Below, piece by piece: positions 4,448 through 43,865 of a stretch of 64,000 bases of DNA; the first letter of the stretch is position 1; each line of letters opens with the position of its first letter. Location: contig NZ_JAARML010000001.1 in the NCBI RefSeq assembly GCF_011759375.1, positions 2,046,001 to 2,110,000 on the forward strand, given 5' to 3'. The stretch comes from Paraflavitalea devenefica. GTDB lineage: Bacteria; Bacteroidota; Bacteroidia; Chitinophagales; Chitinophagaceae. The notes beneath the pieces were generated by a model. The model was not told the DNA's origin. It searched no databases and worked only from the letters and a program-made list of their open reading frames with translations. A program made the translations under genes and the position numbers.

Positions 4448-4633
4448 AGGTACAAGAATAAAATAGATAGCGCGTTCCTGGCCGCCATTTCGATGTAATC
4501 ATACATTTCTTCGACGAAATTAAGCCCTCTTTTTTACGTCGCACAACCCCGCCTCTTTGCAGAATGCCACTTCACTTCGCTTACCATGCGCCGTAGGTTT
4601 GTGTCATCATAAAATTATAAAAATACAAACAAT

Positions 4634-13775: not shown

Positions 13776-13820
13776 CTCATTGAAGACAGCAATAATAATA
13801 TTGCTGATTATTAACGTAAA

Positions 13821-13893
13821 AGCAAGAGCCGCCTCTGGAAGGCGGCTCTTGCTTTTATATTTCCCGCAGAGTCTCCCGGAGGGGACTCTGCGG
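13821..13893. terminator. Two hairpins between convergent genes
   Basis: First hairpin: AGCAAGAGCCGCC (13821-13833) pairs perfectly with GGCGGCTCTTGCT (13841-13853), flanked by A-run and T-run, so it can work in both directions. Second hairpin: CCGCAGAGTC (13864-13873) pairs with GACTCTGCGG (13884-13893). They separate the amidohydrolase from the RluA-type gene. The first shares a core with the double hairpin at 43786-43865. Confidence 0.8.
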
Positions 13894-24097: not shown

Positions 24098-24568
24098 TTA
24101 TTTCTTTGAATATTGAGTGTATTGGCTAACAATCCTGTCGCAAGCTTCATCTATCATTGTAAACACCTCATGGTAGCCGGGCTCTGTGCCGTACCAGGGA
24201 TCGGGCACATCCATATTGCTGCCAGGATGGAGTTCATTCATCAACAGGTCTACCTTGCCGGGCAGGTACTGCTGTTTGGCCAGCCTCTTCATTTCTTCTA
24301 CCACATCGCCGGCCATCGCATAGATCTTATCATATTGGCTAAAATCGACTCCGCTGAAGCGGCGCGCCCGCTGCCGGCTGATATCAATACCGTTCAGGAG
24401 GGCTACTTTCTGCGATAAACGGTGGGGTGCTTCGCCTACATGGTAGCCATTGGTGCCAGCGCTGTCTACAGTCCAATCCAGTCCCGCCTGCCGGGCTTTA
24501 TGTTGTAAAATCCCTTCAGCCAGGGGGCTACGGCAAATATTCCCCAGGCACACCATCAAAATTTTCAT
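24098..24568 (-). CDS. Low-molecular-weight protein tyrosine phosphatase
   Basis: Cytoplasmic phosphatase of 156 residues. The P-loop is VCLGNICRSP with catalytic C7, R13 and S14, and the general acid D123 lies in DVPDPWYG. All catalytic residues are present. Bacterial members dephosphorylate tyrosine kinases of polysaccharide export or arginine phosphate; no kinase or capsule gene is next to it. Located just upstream of hisS on the same strand with a 23-bp gap, so both probably share a transcript. Its -7 box ends 6 bp before the ATG. Confidence 0.95.
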   Translation of the reverse strand: MKILMVCLGNICRSPLAEGILQHKARQAGLDWTVDSAGTNGYHVGEAPHRLSQKVALLNGIDISRQRARRFSGVDFSQYDKIYAMAGDVVEEMKRLAKQQYLPGKVDLLMNELHPGSNMDVPDPWYGTEPGYHEVFTMIDEACDRIVSQYTQYSKK

Positions 24569-24573
24569 GGCTG

Positions 24574-24603
24574 CAAAGATAATCAGGCCAAAGCAGGTGC
24601 AAA
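24574..24603 (-). promoter_or_regulatory. Promoter for the phosphatase (and hisS), leaderless type
   Basis: On the minus strand TTTG (24600-24603), an 18-bp spacer and TATCTTTG (24574-24581). The box ends 6 bp before the ATG at 24568, so the start codon should be at or near the 5' end. Confidence 0.55.
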
Positions 24604-24652: not shown

Positions 24653-24757
24653 CCATCTTCAGGTTTAGGTAGGGTTATCCTGGGGTCATCTTAGGGTCTA
24701 AACCTTAGGAAAACCCTAGGATGACCCTAAGATGACCCCAGGATGACCTTAAGATGG
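24653..24757. repeat. Long imperfect hairpin of GATGACC units
   Basis: The left arm 24673-24698 and the right arm 24723-24748 are inverted copies matching at 25 of 26 positions, with a 24-nt loop. The right arm is made of tandem 10-12-bp units of the form GATGACCC(T/C)A(A/G). CCATCTTCAGGT (24653-24664) can extend the pairing to 24757. Too long and without T-runs to be an ordinary terminator. Confidence 0.85.
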
Positions 24758-25009: not shown

Positions 25010-25372
25010 ATGAAACCAGACATGATACTGCAATCGGACATACTTGACATATTATTTGAAGGAAGAAACAAAGACTATGGGGCTTACAGCCTGCGCAGGG
25101 ACTATAACGGCCGTTTCCTCGGCAGGCACCTGCGTGTGCCGGAAGAAGTGATAGAGCCGGGGCAACGGGTAAAGGTGCCTGTACGTTTTATAGTCAATAA
25201 GGACGGCCATCTTTCGGGCGTGGAATTTATAACAACGGCTGATGAGGCTTTCAAAAAGGAGATCCTGCGGGTAGTGGCTAAAATGCCACGCTGGACACCC
25301 GGCTCGCAGGGAGGGAAAACAGTATCGGTTTACTGCATGATACCCATCATTTTTGAAGTGCCCGTAGAATAA
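25010..25372 (+). CDS. TonB-like protein lacking membrane anchor and proline-rich linker
   Basis: 120 residues. Residues 6-35 (ILQSDILDILFEGRNKDYGAY and following) match the cytoplasmic N-terminus of the two full TonB proteins at 49200 and 50239. Residues about 45-120 match the TonB C-terminal domain (VKVPVRFIVNKDGHLSGVEF, MPRWTPGSQGGKTVSVYCMIPIIFE). Between them the transmembrane helix and proline-rich region of about 100-150 residues are absent. As written it would stay in the cytoplasm, so it cannot be a normal energy transducer. It may be a deletion remnant or a regulator of TonB complexes. The next genes are a small membrane protein, a PstS-like lipoprotein and a TPR protein. Confidence 0.82.
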   Translation: MKPDMILQSDILDILFEGRNKDYGAYSLRRDYNGRFLGRHLRVPEEVIEPGQRVKVPVRFIVNKDGHLSGVEFITTADEAFKKEILRVVAKMPRWTPGSQGGKTVSVYCMIPIIFEVPVE

Positions 25373-29283: not shown

Positions 29284-29862
29284 ATGGCACGTCCTGTTCA
29301 ATATAATATTTACGGTAAGACCGACATAAAGTTGGTGAAAGAAGGGCCCGAAGGCTATATGGGTGAGGCTTTTATGGCTACCAAGCTGGAAAGCGTGGTG
29401 GGATTGGCCCGTAAGAACTCTATCTGGCCTTTACCTTTTGCTACTTCCTGCTGCGGTATCGAATTTATGGCTACCATGGGAGCGCATTATGACCTGGCAA
29501 GGTTTGGCGCTGAACGGGTAGGTTTCTCTCCACGCCAGTGCGACCTGCTGATGGTAATGGGCACTATCGCCAAAAAAATGGCGCCCGTAGTAAAGCAGGT
29601 ATACCTGCAGATGGCAGAACCCCGTTGGGTGCTGGCCATGGGCGCCTGTGCCTCCAGCGGTGGTATTTTTGACACTTATAGCGTGTTGCAGGGAATTGAT
29701 CAGATCATTCCCGTGGATGTATACGTACCCGGATGCCCGCCCCGCCCTGAAGCGGTATTGGATGGTTTTATGCGTATACAGGACCTGGTGGGCAAGGAAA
29801 CCCTGCGCCGGAGGAACAGTGATAAGTACAAATTACTGATGGAAAGCTACGGAATACAATAA
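29284..29862 (+). CDS. nuoB: NADH-quinone oxidoreductase subunit B
   Basis: Peripheral-arm subunit that holds cluster N2, the last iron-sulfur centre before quinone. 192 residues. Cluster ligands lie in TSCCGIEFMA (the adjacent Cys pair), MGACASSGG and VPGCPPRPEA. Sequence is standard for the family. Followed by an 86-bp gap filled by a GAGCTACG-type hairpin repeat before nuoC. Confidence 0.97.
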   Translation: MARPVQYNIYGKTDIKLVKEGPEGYMGEAFMATKLESVVGLARKNSIWPLPFATSCCGIEFMATMGAHYDLARFGAERVGFSPRQCDLLMVMGTIAKKMAPVVKQVYLQMAEPRWVLAMGACASSGGIFDTYSVLQGIDQIIPVDVYVPGCPPRPEAVLDGFMRIQDLVGKETLRRRNSDKYKLLMESYGIQ

Positions 29863-29867
29863 AAACA

Positions 29868-29942
29868 GCCACGAGCTACGAGCTATTAGCTACGAGCTCA
29901 GGCAGAAATCCCCTCGCAGCTCGCTGCTCGAGGCTCGAAGCT
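29868..29942. repeat. Imperfect hairpin of GAGCTACG units between nuoB and nuoC
   Basis: The left part (29871-29899) is a tandem of ACGAGCT with variants, the right part (29913-29942) carries the same kind of unit on the other strand (CAGCTCGCTGCTCGAGGCTCG), separated by about 13 nt. Its unit differs from those in the other nuo gaps. Confidence 0.75.
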
Positions 29943-29948
29943 AAAAAT

Positions 29949-30467
29949 ATGGCATTGACCTACGAACATATTAAACAACGACTGGTAGAAAAATTCGGTG
30001 ATCAGGTAACAGGTTTTGAAGAGCCGTATGGTATGCTGACCTTTGAAGCGCCGAAAGAGTTGAATTTAAAAGTATTGCAATTCCTGTATGATGATGCGGA
30101 ATTGCAATTCCGTTTTCTGACCGACCTGCAGGCAGTACACTATCCTGATAATACCGGCCGGGAACTGGCCGTGGTATATCACCTGCACAACCTGGCCGAC
30201 AATATCCGCATGCGCTTTAAAGTATATACTGAGATCGGCAAGCCGGATGTATACAGCGCCACTGCCCTGTATGCATCGGCCAACTGGATGGAGAGAGAGA
30301 CCTATGATTTCTTTGGGGTTAACTTTGTAGGTCACCCCAACCTGAAACGGGTGCTCAATGTGGATGAGATGGATTACTTCCCCATGCGGAAAGAATTCCC
30401 GCTGGAAGACCAGACAAGGATTGACAAAGACGATGAGATGTTCGGCAGAGGCGGCTCGATTATATAG
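29949..30467 (+). CDS. nuoC: NADH-quinone oxidoreductase subunit C
   Basis: Peripheral-arm subunit beside the quinone site. 172 residues, a stand-alone NuoC rather than the NuoCD fusion of E. coli. The family signature is ANWMERETYDFFGVNFVGHPNLKRVL, followed by FPLEDQTR at the C-terminus. The gap before it carries a hairpin repeat; 26 bp separate it from nuoD. Confidence 0.96.
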   Translation: MALTYEHIKQRLVEKFGDQVTGFEEPYGMLTFEAPKELNLKVLQFLYDDAELQFRFLTDLQAVHYPDNTGRELAVVYHLHNLADNIRMRFKVYTEIGKPDVYSATALYASANWMERETYDFFGVNFVGHPNLKRVLNVDEMDYFPMRKEFPLEDQTRIDKDDEMFGRGGSII

Positions 30468-33669: not shown

Positions 33670-34752
33670 ATGGCCGAAGAAAAGAAACTATTTAAGGTTA
33701 CTATTGATAACATCACCATCGAGGTGGAGCCGGGAACTTCTATCCTGAATGCGGCGCGTATGATTGGAGGTGATGTAGCCCCGCCGGCTATGTGCTACTA
33801 CAGCAAGCTCAAAGGAAGTGGTGGTAAATGCCGTACCTGCCTGGTGGAAGTAGCCGCCGGTTCTACTGCCGATCCACGTCCGATGCCCAAGCTGGTAGCC
33901 AGTTGCCGTACCAATGTGATGGATGGAATGGTAGTGAAGAATATTACCAGTGAGCGCGTGATAGATGCCCGCAATGGCGTAGTGGAATTCCTGCTGCTCA
34001 ATCACCCCCTGGATTGCCCTATCTGCGACCAGGCCGGTGAATGCCACCTGCAGGACCTGAGCTATGACCACGGTAAAGAAGGCACCCGTTATGAATTTAA
34101 CAGGCGTACCTTCAATAAGCACGACCTGGGTCCTTATATCCAGTTGCACATGACACGTTGCATCCTGTGCTACCGTTGCGTATTCACCGCCGATCAACTC
34201 ACCAACAAACGGGTACACGGCGTACTGGACAGGGGTGATCATGCCGAGATCGCTACTTATATAGAGAAGTCGCTCGACAATGATTTTATAGGAAACGTCA
34301 TTGATGTGTGCCCCGTAGGCGCACTGACCGATAAAACCTTCCGTTTCAAGAACCGCGTCTGGTTCCTGAAGCCGGTAGATGCTCATCGTGACTGTCCCAA
34401 ATGTTCCGGTAAGGTAACCTTATGGAACCGTGGCGATGAAGTATACCGCGTTACTGCCCGCAAAGATCAGTGGGGTGAGGTGGAAGACTGGATCTGTAAC
34501 GAATGCCGCTTTGAGAAAAAGCAAACCAGTGACTGGGTGATTGAAGGGCCTACCAAAGTAAGCCGTCAGTCAGTCATATCACAAGGCCACTATGTAGGAC
34601 TGAAGAGGCCCAAAGAAACCATCACAGAAGTACTGGAGGGCCGCAAGCCAAGGTTACTGATGGATATACATGATGTGAGCCAGGTGAATAAGCCGAACGT
34701 TGAGCTGTCAAAGATCCCCGGGCCTGCCCATTCGGATGACTTTAAGAAATAG
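33670..34752 (+). CDS. nuoG: NADH-quinone oxidoreductase subunit G, short form without molybdopterin domain
   Basis: 360 residues against about 700-900 in E. coli or Thermus. Kept are the 2Fe-2S domain (CYYSKLKGSGGKCRTCLVEV), the His-containing 4Fe-4S domain (LDCPICDQAGECHLQD), the second 4Fe-4S set (TRCILCYRCVF, DVCPVGAL) and the beginning of the next Cys-rich segment (CPKCSGKV...WICNECRF). The large molybdopterin-oxidoreductase-like domain is missing. The stop is followed by an intergenic repeat and then nuoH, so there is no frameshifted remainder. Short NuoG is, to my knowledge, common in Bacteroidota; the electron path to NuoI is preserved. Confidence 0.94.
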   Translation: MAEEKKLFKVTIDNITIEVEPGTSILNAARMIGGDVAPPAMCYYSKLKGSGGKCRTCLVEVAAGSTADPRPMPKLVASCRTNVMDGMVVKNITSERVIDARNGVVEFLLLNHPLDCPICDQAGECHLQDLSYDHGKEGTRYEFNRRTFNKHDLGPYIQLHMTRCILCYRCVFTADQLTNKRVHGVLDRGDHAEIATYIEKSLDNDFIGNVIDVCPVGALTDKTFRFKNRVWFLKPVDAHRDCPKCSGKVTLWNRGDEVYRVTARKDQWGEVEDWICNECRFEKKQTSDWVIEGPTKVSRQSVISQGHYVGLKRPKETITEVLEGRKPRLLMDIHDVSQVNKPNVELSKIPGPAHSDDFKK

Positions 34753-34832
34753 GCAAGTGGTAAGAGACGAGTGGCGAGTGGGGCGCTTGCGTCGCTAAAA
34801 GCCCACTAGCCATTTGCCACTAGCTACTAGCC
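34753..34832. repeat. Imperfect hairpin of AGTGG units between nuoG and nuoH
   Basis: Left arm 34753-34783 carries GAGTGGCGAGTGGG-type units; right arm 34802-34832 has CCCACTAGCC and GCCACTAGC, the same unit on the other strand; spacer about 18 nt. Pairing is imperfect. Confidence 0.75.
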
Positions 34833-34872
34833 CGGAAGGATACCGAACTTGAGGTGATATGCAAGCTGATTA

Positions 34873-35958
34873 ATGAACAAAGTTGACTTTTATAATATGT
34901 ATTCTACCTTATTAGCATTTGACTGGTTATTCTTGATCGAGAAGCTGGTATTGATCATAGGCATCGTTTCCGTTTCATTGGGAATAGCTATGTATGAAAC
35001 CTGGGCCGAACGTAAGGTAGCGGCTGTCATGCAGGACCGTCGCGGTCCCAACAGGGCCGGCCCCCTCGGGTTGTTGCAACCCCTGGCAGATGGTCTGAAA
35101 CTGTTTATGAAAGAAGAGATCATCCCCAATACTTCCAACCGTATGCTGTTCATCCTGGGACCTTGCCTGGCGATGCTGGCAGCCATGATGACGTCGGCGG
35201 TCATTCCCTGGGGTGGTAAAATAGATTTCTTTGGCAGGGAAGTAAGCCTGCAGATTGCAGATATAAATATTGGTATCCTGTACATATTCGCTGTAGTGAG
35301 CATGGGTATCTATGGCATCATGATCGGTGGATGGGCATCCAACAATAAGTTCTCCCTGATGGCTGCCCTGCGTGGCGCTTCCCAGGTGATCTCTTATGAG
35401 CTGCCGATGGGATTGTCGCTGATCGCGTTGCTGATGCTCACCGGTTCTTTGAAGATGAGTGATATCGTAGGCGGACAAATAGACGGTGTATGGAATGTGG
35501 TATACCAGCCTTTGGGTTTCCTGATCTTCCTGATCTGTGCTTTTGCAGAATGTAACCGTACCCCCTTCGACCTGCCGGAAGCGGAGAATGAGCTGAACTT
35601 TGGTTACCACCAGGAGTATTCTTCCATGAAACTGGGCTTTTATCTTTTTGCAGAATACATCAACATGTTCATCAGCAGTGCGGTAATGGCAACCCTGTTC
35701 TTCGGGGGATATGATATTCCGTTTGTGAATGATGCACAGTTGACGGAAAAGATTGGTTTGAACTGGATGGCCCTGTTGCAGGGAGGCGCCCTGTTTGCGA
35801 AAGTAGTGGCTTTCATCCTGCTGTTCATGTGGGTGCGCTGGACCATTCCAAGGTTCCGTTATGACCAGTTGATGCACCTGGGCTGGAAGCGCCTGGTGCC
35901 GCTGGCCTTGATCAATATGATTGTTACAGCCGCCGTAGTATTGTGGCTGAAAAAATAA
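34873..35958 (+). CDS. nuoH: NADH-quinone oxidoreductase subunit H
   Basis: Membrane subunit that links the peripheral arm to the proton-pumping arm and forms part of the quinone chamber. 361 residues, about eight transmembrane segments. Family motifs are WAERKVAAVMQDRRGPNRAG, the loop PLADGLKLFMKEEIIP, RGASQVISYELPM and ECNRTPFDLPEAENEL with YHQEYSSMK. A 100-bp gap separates it from nuoI and may hold a weak internal promoter. A later ATG at 34897 is possible but the first ATG is preferred. Confidence 0.97.
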   Translation: MNKVDFYNMYSTLLAFDWLFLIEKLVLIIGIVSVSLGIAMYETWAERKVAAVMQDRRGPNRAGPLGLLQPLADGLKLFMKEEIIPNTSNRMLFILGPCLAMLAAMMTSAVIPWGGKIDFFGREVSLQIADINIGILYIFAVVSMGIYGIMIGGWASNNKFSLMAALRGASQVISYELPMGLSLIALLMLTGSLKMSDIVGGQIDGVWNVVYQPLGFLIFLICAFAECNRTPFDLPEAENELNFGYHQEYSSMKLGFYLFAEYINMFISSAVMATLFFGGYDIPFVNDAQLTEKIGLNWMALLQGGALFAKVVAFILLFMWVRWTIPRFRYDQLMHLGWKRLVPLALINMIVTAAVVLWLKK

Positions 35959-37152: not shown

Positions 37153-37482
37153 ATGAATATTGAATATTATATCGTTTTGTCCATTGCGCTGTTCTGCATC
37201 GGTATTGCCGGTGTACTTACACGCCGTAATGCCATCATCATTTTTATGTGCATAGAGCTTATGCTCAATGCCGTGAACCTGTTGCTGGTAGCATTTTCCA
37301 AAATGCACCACCTGAAAGGAGTGGCAACCAATCCCAATGCCGGGATTGATGGGCAACTGTTTGTATTTTTTATCATGGTGGTTGCAGCGGCTGAAGTAAG
37401 CGTGGGACTGGCCATCATTGTGATGATGTACCGGAATGTGCATTCAGTAGACGTTAATTTCCTTAACCGGTTGAAACACTGA
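37153..37482 (+). CDS. nuoK: NADH-quinone oxidoreductase subunit K
   Basis: Small three-helix subunit with the two membrane glutamates of the proton path: one in [17 protein letters not shown], the other in [15 protein letters not shown]. 109 residues, normal. The 83-bp gap to nuoL is filled by a GAAGTC-type hairpin repeat. Confidence 0.97.
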
Positions 37483-37484
37483 AA

Positions 37485-37554
37485 TCAGAGGTCAGAAGTC
37501 GGAGGTCGGAACGTGCGTAAGCTTCAGACTTCTTACTTCATACTTCAGACTTCC
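37485..37554. repeat. Imperfect hairpin of CAGAAGTC units between nuoK and nuoL
   Basis: Left arm 37485-37511 has GGTCAGAAGTCGGAGGTC; right arm 37520-37554 has CAGACTTCTTACTTCATACT, the same type of unit on the other strand, with a spacer of about 8 nt. Imperfect pairing. Confidence 0.75.
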
Positions 37555-37565
37555 AATTAGGCTTT

Positions 37566-39497
37566 ATGAAGAATGTTTTACAATTAGTCTGGTTAATTCC
37601 TTTGCTGCCATTGATTGGCTTTCTGATCAATGGCTTGTTGCGCAGGCAGCTTTCCAAAGCCCTTACGGGTATTATTGGCAGTGGTGTGATCCTGGGTTCC
37701 TTTGTAATAAGCCTGCTTATTTTCCTGCAGGTAAAGCAGGGCAATACGGCGGTGGTGGACCTGTTTGACTTTATCAGCGTAGGGAAATTATCCATTCCTT
37801 TCTCCTTCCAGGTAGACCAGCTTTCTTCCCTCTTCCTGTTGATCATTACCGGTGTAGGTTTCCTTATACATGTGTATTCCGCTGCCTACATGCACGAAGA
37901 AGAAGGACATCATTTTGCCCGGTATTTCTCCTACCTCAACCTGTTCGTGTTCTCCATGTTGCTGCTGGTACTCGGCTCCAACTATGTGATCATGTTCATC
38001 GGCTGGGAAGGCGTAGGATTGTGCTCTTACTTATTGATCGGTTATTGGTTTAAGAATACAGATTATAACAACGCTGCGAAAAAAGCCTTTGTGATGAACC
38101 GTATTGGTGACCTGGGCTTTTTGCTGGCCATCTTCTGGATCATCAATAAATTTGGTACGGTTGCCTATGGTGATCTATTTGAGCAGGTAGCTGCCAGCGC
38201 CAAAACACTCGATGGCACTGCGGCCATTGTAGGGATCACCCTGCTGCTGTTTGTAGGCGCTACCGGTAAAAGTGCGCAGATACCTTTATATACCTGGTTG
38301 CCCGATGCGATGGCAGGTCCCACACCCGTGTCGGCGCTCATCCACGCGGCTACGATGGTGACCGCGGGTATTTATATGATCGCCCGGAGCAATATCCTGT
38401 ATACACTGGCTCCTTTTACACAGGGTATTGTGGCCATCATTGGTTTGGCAACGGCGCTGTTTGCTGCTACTATTGCCCTCAAACAAAACGATATCAAGAA
38501 AGTACTGGCCTACTCTACGGTGAGCCAGTTGGGTTATATGTTCCTTGGCCTGGGTGTTGGTGCTTATACCGGCGCTGTATTCCATGTAATGACCCACGCT
38601 TTCTTCAAGGCCCTCTTATTCCTGGGCGCCGGTTCGGTGATCCATGCCATGCACCATGAGCAGGACATCCGCAAGATGGGCGGCCTGAAAAAATACCTGC
38701 CCATTACGCACCTTACTTTCCTGCTGGGCTGTATCGCTATCGCGGGTATTCCTCCTTTCTCCGGTTTCTTCTCCAAAGATGAAATACTGGCTGCCGCTTA
38801 TGGCGCCAATAAAATATACTGGATCATTGGTGTGATCACAGCGGGTATGACAGCATTCTATATGTTCCGCCTGTACGCTACCACTTTCCTGGGCAAGTTC
38901 CGTGGTGAAGAACATCTCCATGGGCATCATCCCCATGAGAGCCCGGCAGCGATGACCATTCCGCTCATCGTGCTGGCTATCTTAAGTGTGATAGGCGGAT
39001 GGGTGGGTATACCGGAAGTGTTAATGCCTAATGCGCATTCTCTCGAACATTTCCTCGATCCCATCTTTGCCGAATCAGGCAAATATGTACACGAGTTTAG
39101 ACCTGCACATCACCTGGACCATACCACTGAATATGGATTGATGGGTGCTTCTGTAGGTATTGCGGTGATCGCTATTTTCTATGCGCTCGCACGCTTCAGC
39201 AAGCGGCCCGAATTGGGAGAGCCTGCAGGTTTTGGAAAAGTGCTGGCCAACAAATGGTATGTGGACGAGCTGTACAATGCCATCATCGTAAAGCCGCTGC
39301 AATGGCTGGCTAAATTACTCAATGGCTTTGTGGAGAAGGATGTGCTGGATTGGACCGTGAATGGTATAGGTCGTATTATCAATTATAGCAGCCGGCAGGT
39401 GCGGCTGTTACAAAGTGGCCAGGTGGGCAGCTATGTATTGCTGATGGTATTGGGTATACTGGCATTCTTTGTTATCCAGTTTTTTGTGAAGAAGTAA
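37566..39497 (+). CDS. nuoL: NADH-quinone oxidoreductase subunit L
   Basis: Largest proton-pumping, antiporter-like subunit at the end of the membrane arm. 643 residues with about 16 transmembrane segments and the long C-terminal lateral helix. Key motifs are MFIGWEGVGLCSYLLIGYW, TGKSAQIPLYTWLPDAMAGPTPVSALIHAATMVTAG, KKVLAYSTVSQLGYM and MTHAFFKALLFLGAGSVIH. A His-rich loop (EEHLHGHHPHE) lies near residue 450. Normal length. Confidence 0.97.
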   Translation: MKNVLQLVWLIPLLPLIGFLINGLLRRQLSKALTGIIGSGVILGSFVISLLIFLQVKQGNTAVVDLFDFISVGKLSIPFSFQVDQLSSLFLLIITGVGFLIHVYSAAYMHEEEGHHFARYFSYLNLFVFSMLLLVLGSNYVIMFIGWEGVGLCSYLLIGYWFKNTDYNNAAKKAFVMNRIGDLGFLLAIFWIINKFGTVAYGDLFEQVAASAKTLDGTAAIVGITLLLFVGATGKSAQIPLYTWLPDAMAGPTPVSALIHAATMVTAGIYMIARSNILYTLAPFTQGIVAIIGLATALFAATIALKQNDIKKVLAYSTVSQLGYMFLGLGVGAYTGAVFHVMTHAFFKALLFLGAGSVIHAMHHEQDIRKMGGLKKYLPITHLTFLLGCIAIAGIPPFSGFFSKDEILAAAYGANKIYWIIGVITAGMTAFYMFRLYATTFLGKFRGEEHLHGHHPHESPAAMTIPLIVLAILSVIGGWVGIPEVLMPNAHSLEHFLDPIFAESGKYVHEFRPAHHLDHTTEYGLMGASVGIAVIAIFYALARFSKRPELGEPAGFGKVLANKWYVDELYNAIIVKPLQWLAKLLNGFVEKDVLDWTVNGIGRIINYSSRQVRLLQSGQVGSYVLLMVLGILAFFVIQFFVKK

Positions 39498-43765: not shown

Positions 43766-43785
43766 TCTTCTAATTTAAAAATACA

Positions 43786-43865
43786 AAAGGTGGGTCGCCT
43801 TTCAGAGGCGGCTCACCTTTATCATTAAAAAGGGTGAGCCGCTTTTCAAAAGCGACCCACCCTTT
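43786..43865. terminator. Bidirectional double-hairpin terminator
   Basis: Two halves (43786-43820 and 43829-43865) are near-inverted copies of one another. Each half is itself an imperfect hairpin, for example GGTGGGTCGCC (43789-43799) with GGCGGCTCACC (43807-43817). A-runs and T-runs flank both. It lies between convergent genes. Confidence 0.85.

Follow-up and report, generated by a model that had tools for sequence, protein, structure and literature searches.

An inverted array of 11-bp units in an intergenic gap of Paraflavitalea devenefica belongs to a class of arrays associated with small-protein genes

A gap between two divergent genes of Paraflavitalea devenefica contains a sequence that looks like a long hairpin. 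The DNA analyzed, called the window here, is a stretch of 64,000 nucleotides (contig NZ_JAARML010000001.1, positions 2,046,001 to 2,110,000 of the forward strand). The original prediction described a near-perfect hairpin with arms built from tandem units of 10–12 bp. Inverted-repeat analysis confirmed a long inverted repeat with arms of 29 nt each (24670–24698 and 24723–24751), which are 93% complementary with 24 nt between them. The arms are indeed tandem, with a unit of 11 bp rather than 10–12 bp: TRF revealed a period of 11 with 4.0 copies at 24713–24756 and 2.6 copies at 24670–24698, and unit-like sequence was also detected inside the spacer (24700–24729). As predicted, the feature is longer than a terminator, and no T-run was read after the stem on either strand. 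The locus comprises the following features.

24098..24568, minus strand: gene of a low-molecular-weight phosphotyrosine phosphatase, left neighbour (PF01451)
24573..24603, minus strand: candidate phosphatase promoter, TTTG-N18-TATCTTTGC, assigned by eye
24670..24698, minus strand: left half-array containing about 2.6 of the 11-bp units, which on the minus strand read GACCCTAAGAT, GACCCCAGGAT and AACCCTA
24699..24719, strand not applicable: array centre, TAAACC followed by unit-like GGAAAACCCTA
24720..24756, plus strand: right half-array, units GATGACCCTAA, GATGACCCCAG and GATGACCTTAA, the better conserved arm across the family
25010..25372, plus strand: gene of a TonB C-terminal domain protein, right neighbour (PF03544)

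The array sits in a 441-bp gap between the divergent phosphatase and TonB C-terminal domain genes. The candidate promoter, called from the Bacteroidetes promoter consensus, lies between the array and the phosphatase gene, which would place the array upstream of the promoter and outside the transcript. If this candidate is right, the phosphatase transcript would start between array and gene and would lack the array. The closest named match of the phosphatase was found in Niastella caeni (81%). The TonB-like open reading frame at 25010–25372 encodes 120 amino acids, compared with 285–289 for those of two congeners (G003 and G002); its N-terminus seems to be fused to the C-terminal domain with the middle part missing. 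Two other long inverted repeats of the window, at 43785–43865 (36 nt, 83%) and 13817–13857 (18 nt, 100%), exhibited no period of 11.

The distribution of the array was followed in the own genome (G000) and in four congeners (G001–G004), with CCYARGATGAC as the unit of what is named family A. A pattern search with ATGACCYYARGATGACC, allowing up to two mismatches, revealed nine clusters in G000, all on contig C1 (2.43 of 8.73 Mb); five further single matches with two mismatches occurred elsewhere in this genome, and a control pattern gave three matches. When 39 genomes were searched by blastn with the whole gap, every one of the five that belong to the genus proved to contain A arrays and none of the 34 others did, the sole match in G034 falling outside the array. 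By manual count family A occupies 34 places (nine in G000, eight in G001, five in G002, seven in G003 and five in G004), so that the feature, which might have been a single occurrence, is a dispersed repeat. Sixteen copies lie between divergent and six between convergent genes, and inspection of the genes next to the 34 copies revealed no common theme. The right arm is better conserved over the family, and within it the order of unit variants is the same at non-orthologous loci, which suggests copying. Five sets of copies occupy orthologous gaps, and in two of these sets the conserved arm is reversed in one species. The A copies are therefore old, and at present they show little mobility. In G003, too, the copies are confined to one part of the chromosome, all seven falling within 4.14–8.02 Mb (total length 8.44 Mb); those of G001, G002 and G004 are spread over several contigs, unlike those of G000. 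GC skew over 20 sampled G003 stretches was too noisy to place origin or terminus, and no dnaA was recognized by eye among the open reading frames at the ends of the G003 record. Near one A array of G000 (gap a1631, about positions 4450–4600 of locus L057) a second palindrome-like pair, AGAACTTGTCGAAGGG / GGGGCTTCGACAAGCTC, was observed, perhaps another repeat family.

The prediction also held that the same plan, a tandem unit on one strand and then on the other, recurs with a different unit. This plan was found again with several units. A detector was used which counts direct and inverted period-11 word matches, with a threshold of 10 and 10 chosen after seeing known arrays. At the gap orthologous to that of the window, where G000 carries unit A, G003 carries RTACCGAACAA (family B), and G002 carries TTGAAGCATGG (family C). 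The array of G004 is long, resembles family B and has the centre AAGTGCGCTTTAAC. All four arrays passed the detector. Thus, conservation at this gap in the three other species read concerns the plan and not the unit. Families B and C are themselves dispersed: by manual count, about seven C sites are present in G002, and for family B there are about nine sites in G004 and three in G003. Among 79 phosphatase gaps of other genomes, a clear period-11 array was present only in Flavisolibacter ginsengisoli (L098), and two gaps (L109 and L158) gave marginal scores. The window together with 20 random G003 stretches (464 kb) yielded nine period-11 matches; by eye, these comprise the window array, three other true arrays with the units GAGGAGGCATA, ATAAGCCGTAG and GTCCCTGTTTG, and about five cases of coding noise. 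The inverted 11-bp plan is common to a class of arrays in which the unit takes many versions. An inverted period-11 array with the unit GTGTTAGAACG was also observed in a different genus, in a Flavihumibacter MAG (L089:5800–6000).

The gaps of the nuo operon, to which the feature had been likened, share this plan and differ in both unit and period. TRF assigned a period of 7 to 29867–29898 and 29913–29942, and the 200 bp from 29826 gave period-7 scores of 26/15. Period 7 also stands out in the 464-kb sample, with 48 matches compared with 19, 7, 3, 3 and 0 for periods 8, 10, 13, 14 and 16; periods 6, 9, 12 and 15 gave 239, 39, 17 and 6 matches, numbers that are affected by codon periodicity. 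High direct and inverted period-7 scores were observed in or near the nuo operon at 29751–30076, 34676–34950 and 37351–37676 of the window.

Arrays of the class were associated with genes of small proteins, designated MAISKN, MARLTS and DUF6266-like. Within 500 bp upstream an array was detected for 30 of 65 DUF6266-like or MARLTS genes and for two of 255 control open reading frames, which were taken from G003 alone; since these families were first met beside arrays, the count carries an ascertainment bias, and after subtraction of the eight discovery genes 24 of 57 were positive (manual count). By group, upstream arrays were found for 8/17 genes of the MAISKN superfamily, 15/28 MARLTS and 7/20 MARLTS-like genes, some of the last (e.g. 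L331 and L218) being possible noise by eye. Downstream the corresponding numbers were 1/17, 1/28 and 2/20, in total 4/65 with 0/255 for the control. The remaining 35 of the 65 genes scored under the array threshold. The core TTAAAGCGCAYTT occurred 34 times in five genomes compared with one control match. Sequence was fetched for 30 of these 34 sites, of which 12 passed the detector; by eye many others resemble shorter or worn arrays, and L244, L245 and L250 chance matches. Outside the genus, GTTAAAGCGCACTT was present in two of 145 genomes of the family. Of 30 MARLTS genes, 25 have the core TAAAGG?CGCAYT within 700 bp on the upstream side and one has it within 700 bp on the downstream side. 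The array count covers 28 rather than 30 MARLTS genes, as those with less than 300 bp upstream or with identical starts were left out; L219 and L228 are absent from the set of 28, and L208 and L344 are one gene.

The MAISKN gene encodes 107 amino acids and has one full-length orthologue in each of five congeners; in four of the five an A array lies about 120–180 bp upstream. G012, which belongs to another genus, has a MAISKN relative of 46% identity with, by eye, an A-like array (TATAGGGTTTT) at about −120. Only four of the 34 A arrays adjoin MAISKN; in G004 the MAISKN gene lacks an array, and the five A arrays of this genome lie at other places. At L180 and L198, in G003 and in G004, a DUF6266-type gene and a sigma-factor-like gene diverge from a gap that contains a B array. 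Pfam analysis of these loci covered the L180 DUF6266 protein and the L198 sigma protein, and the L180 gene matched DUF6266 (PF19781) with an E value of 9.6e-40. Pfam gave no family for MAISKN or for three MARLTS proteins, a search of curated families produced no match above cut-off for MAISKN or MARLTS, and a search for a solved relative of MARLTS gave none (best E 0.67). Profile comparison of MAISKN with DUF6266 gave an E value of 0.001, and the DUF6266 profile matched the MAISKN-type proteins L358 (2e-4) and L361 (0.0098), weak evidence which suggests that MAISKN is related to DUF6266. The match of MARLTS to DUF6266 was weak (E 0.0097) and comparison of MAISKN with MARLTS gave no match; MARLTS is only possibly related to MAISKN and DUF6266. 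Two MAISKN relatives showed weak winged-helix matches (best E 0.001, below the Pfam cut-offs), the only hint that these proteins may bind DNA. In the literature searched, mostly papers open without subscription, DUF6266 was not named.

Gene and array recur together as a unit of about 0.5–0.95 kb. Among the MARLTS copies of G000, and likewise among those of G003, the common DNA starts 140–390 bp upstream of the gene and extends to the stop codon or up to 21 bp farther, and less far in copies whose C-termini diverge. MAISKN with its A array occurs in differing contexts in G000, in G001 and in G003, where it is the same as in G002; among the MAISKN loci (10 kb), DNA homology at E 1e-3 was confined to the region from about −210 through the end of the gene. 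The same cassette was thus found in unrelated contexts with sharp edges, as would be a mobile element; selection on gene and promoter could in part have produced this sharpness. Protein identity and array similarity were correlated over 24 cassettes (Mantel r 0.81), a value confounded by the fact that gene and array descend together. Neither terminal repeats nor target duplications were delimited; the flanks of array-less gaps are too diverged for exact edges, and no mobility enzyme was recognized for the cassettes. A plasmid-borne origin was dropped after neither the array region nor one MARLTS protein matched a plasmid collection, and a phage-borne origin after viral contigs gave no confirmed relative of MAISKN, MARLTS or DUF6266.

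We regard the chances as about even that the window feature is a solo array of family A, i.e. the array of a mobile cassette without its gene, with units that are bound by the encoded small protein. Such binding would probably occur on double-stranded DNA. The small protein would occupy its own units along a single face of the helix, one molecule per 11-bp step, a spacing that agrees with one protein in each helical turn. The symmetrical array would then act both as the operator of its gene and as the recognized end of a small mobile cassette. The window copy would be an array of this kind that lacks the gene, and the protein might still bind to it in the gap between the divergent promoters. 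More tentatively, the Chitinophagaceae may harbor a minimal mobile element of about 0.5–0.95 kb which consists of one DUF6266-like or MARLTS protein and an iteron array as its end, with units that diversify together with the protein and solo arrays of different specificity that share an intergenic slot across species.

A non-mobile system, operator- or centromere-like, appears possible but rather doubtful. Here a small protein would bind several iteron arrays including one at its own promoter and would regulate genes or organize the chromosome, and selection would keep the sites while the units drift with the protein. The A copies at orthologous gaps in five sets, the location of all nine G000 copies on C1 and the arrays of differing unit in the window gap of four species agree with this. 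Array and flank similarities of four orthologous A pairs were 0.72/0.54, 0.71/0.49, 0.65/0.41 and 0.73/0.75; the arrays are more alike than the flanks in three of the four, but alignment of repetitive arrays inflates their similarity, and the flank of the last pair includes coding sequence. Array-less orthologous gaps speak against such a system: gap a1631 measures 19–80 bp and has no array in G003 and G002, and gap a880 has none in G002, G003 and G004, while in G001 it carries by eye an array of another unit (direct score 9, below 10; inverted score 20). The lack of a common theme among neighbour genes likewise speaks against it, and the unit order common to the copies means copying.

Iteron units measure 11 bp in the ParR/parC system of R1 and 7 bp in the omega system, and parC of R1 reportedly has ten direct repeats flanking a promoter. 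In omega/parS of pSM19035, arrays of 9, 7 and 10 iterons overlap promoters, and one small protein binds several dispersed arrays over promoters, one of them its own (PMC5016525). Omega/parS is the nearest working parallel and also lends weight to a non-mobile system. Like omega/parS and ParR/parC, the arrays of the class consist of short units in tandem close to the promoter of a gene for a small protein. In contrast, the arrays described here are opposed half-arrays at chromosomal sites, the proteins belong to another or to no assigned family, and the unit varies between paralogous cassettes. As in an iteron operator, tandem short sites lie upstream of a small-protein gene in the class; the window copy has no such gene next to it.

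It is improbable that neutral replication slippage combined with template switching generated inverted short tandem arrays without participation of a protein. Inverted period-7 and period-11 arrays with several units in the window and in the G003 sample would fit such a process, but it does not account for an identical unit and unit order at non-orthologous loci, for the upstream association of 30/65 versus 2/255, or for 34 occurrences of the core motif versus one control match.

Least of all do we expect that pairing itself matters, as it would in a hairpin of RNA or single-stranded DNA that serves as an attenuator, a stability element, a structured RNA or the substrate of a transposase. The predicted fold of the plus strand of the window array, folded alone as RNA, is strong (−70.2 kcal/mol compared with −35.8, sd 3.6, z −9.5; none of 200 dinucleotide shuffles was as good as the native sequence). 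However, RNAalifold of 33 of the 34 A copies gave four consensus pairs, none with a compensatory change. When arms were swapped between copies in five species, the own arm paired better in 0.54, 0.64, 0.60, 0.43 and 0.50 of the comparisons, with the arm border chosen to favor the own pair; copy 4_c23, which lacks the anchor motif, was left out of both analyses. Own arms that pair no better than swapped ones are as expected for double-stranded DNA sites. An Rfam search gave only microRNA families far below the gathering scores. Consequently, a structured RNA was rejected, as was an intrinsic terminator on account of the missing T-run and of the location of the 34 copies, 16 between divergent genes compared with six between convergent ones. 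The arms are complementary because one unit is used in both orientations. The predicted structural hairpin is thus probably a misreading, and what is kept is the unit in both orientations.

Three further systems were compared. OmpR/PhoB-type operators contain 11-bp direct repeats whose step (7+4 bp) keeps to the same face of the helix and resembles that of our arrays, which in contrast have more units, two opposed half-arrays and many unit versions and implicate no response regulator. MITEs and solo ends of mobile elements resemble the arrays in that the non-coding end of an element with a gene also occurs in copies that lack the gene; in contrast, neither a terminal inverted repeat nor a target duplication nor a transposase was identified for the arrays. 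REP elements and REPtrons (RAYT) are likewise palindromic repeats scattered over intergenic regions, in some cases next to a gene that is presumed to mobilize them. REP elements measure 20–40 bp (PMC3733652), whereas the arrays comprise about 80–110 bp of 11-bp units, in the window arms of 29 nt and a 24-nt centre. Among 12 loci of Y1 transposases (PF01797) in five genomes only one gave an array score, a marginal one (10/11), which also argues against a transposase substrate, and the array-linked proteins had no match to the Y1 family. On the grounds of length and of Y1 loci without clear arrays, REP/REPIN with RAYT was rejected.

No published description of such arrays was found in the literature searched, mostly papers open without subscription; they may represent an undescribed small mobile element or protein-binding array. 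An intergenic repeat class in this part of the Bacteroidota appears to be tied to small genes of unstudied function. If the cassettes do move without a known transposase, a mechanism of mobility is there to be found. If the small proteins do read the arrays, nature would have supplied a collection of protein-DNA pairs that have diversified, and the family would gain its first function.
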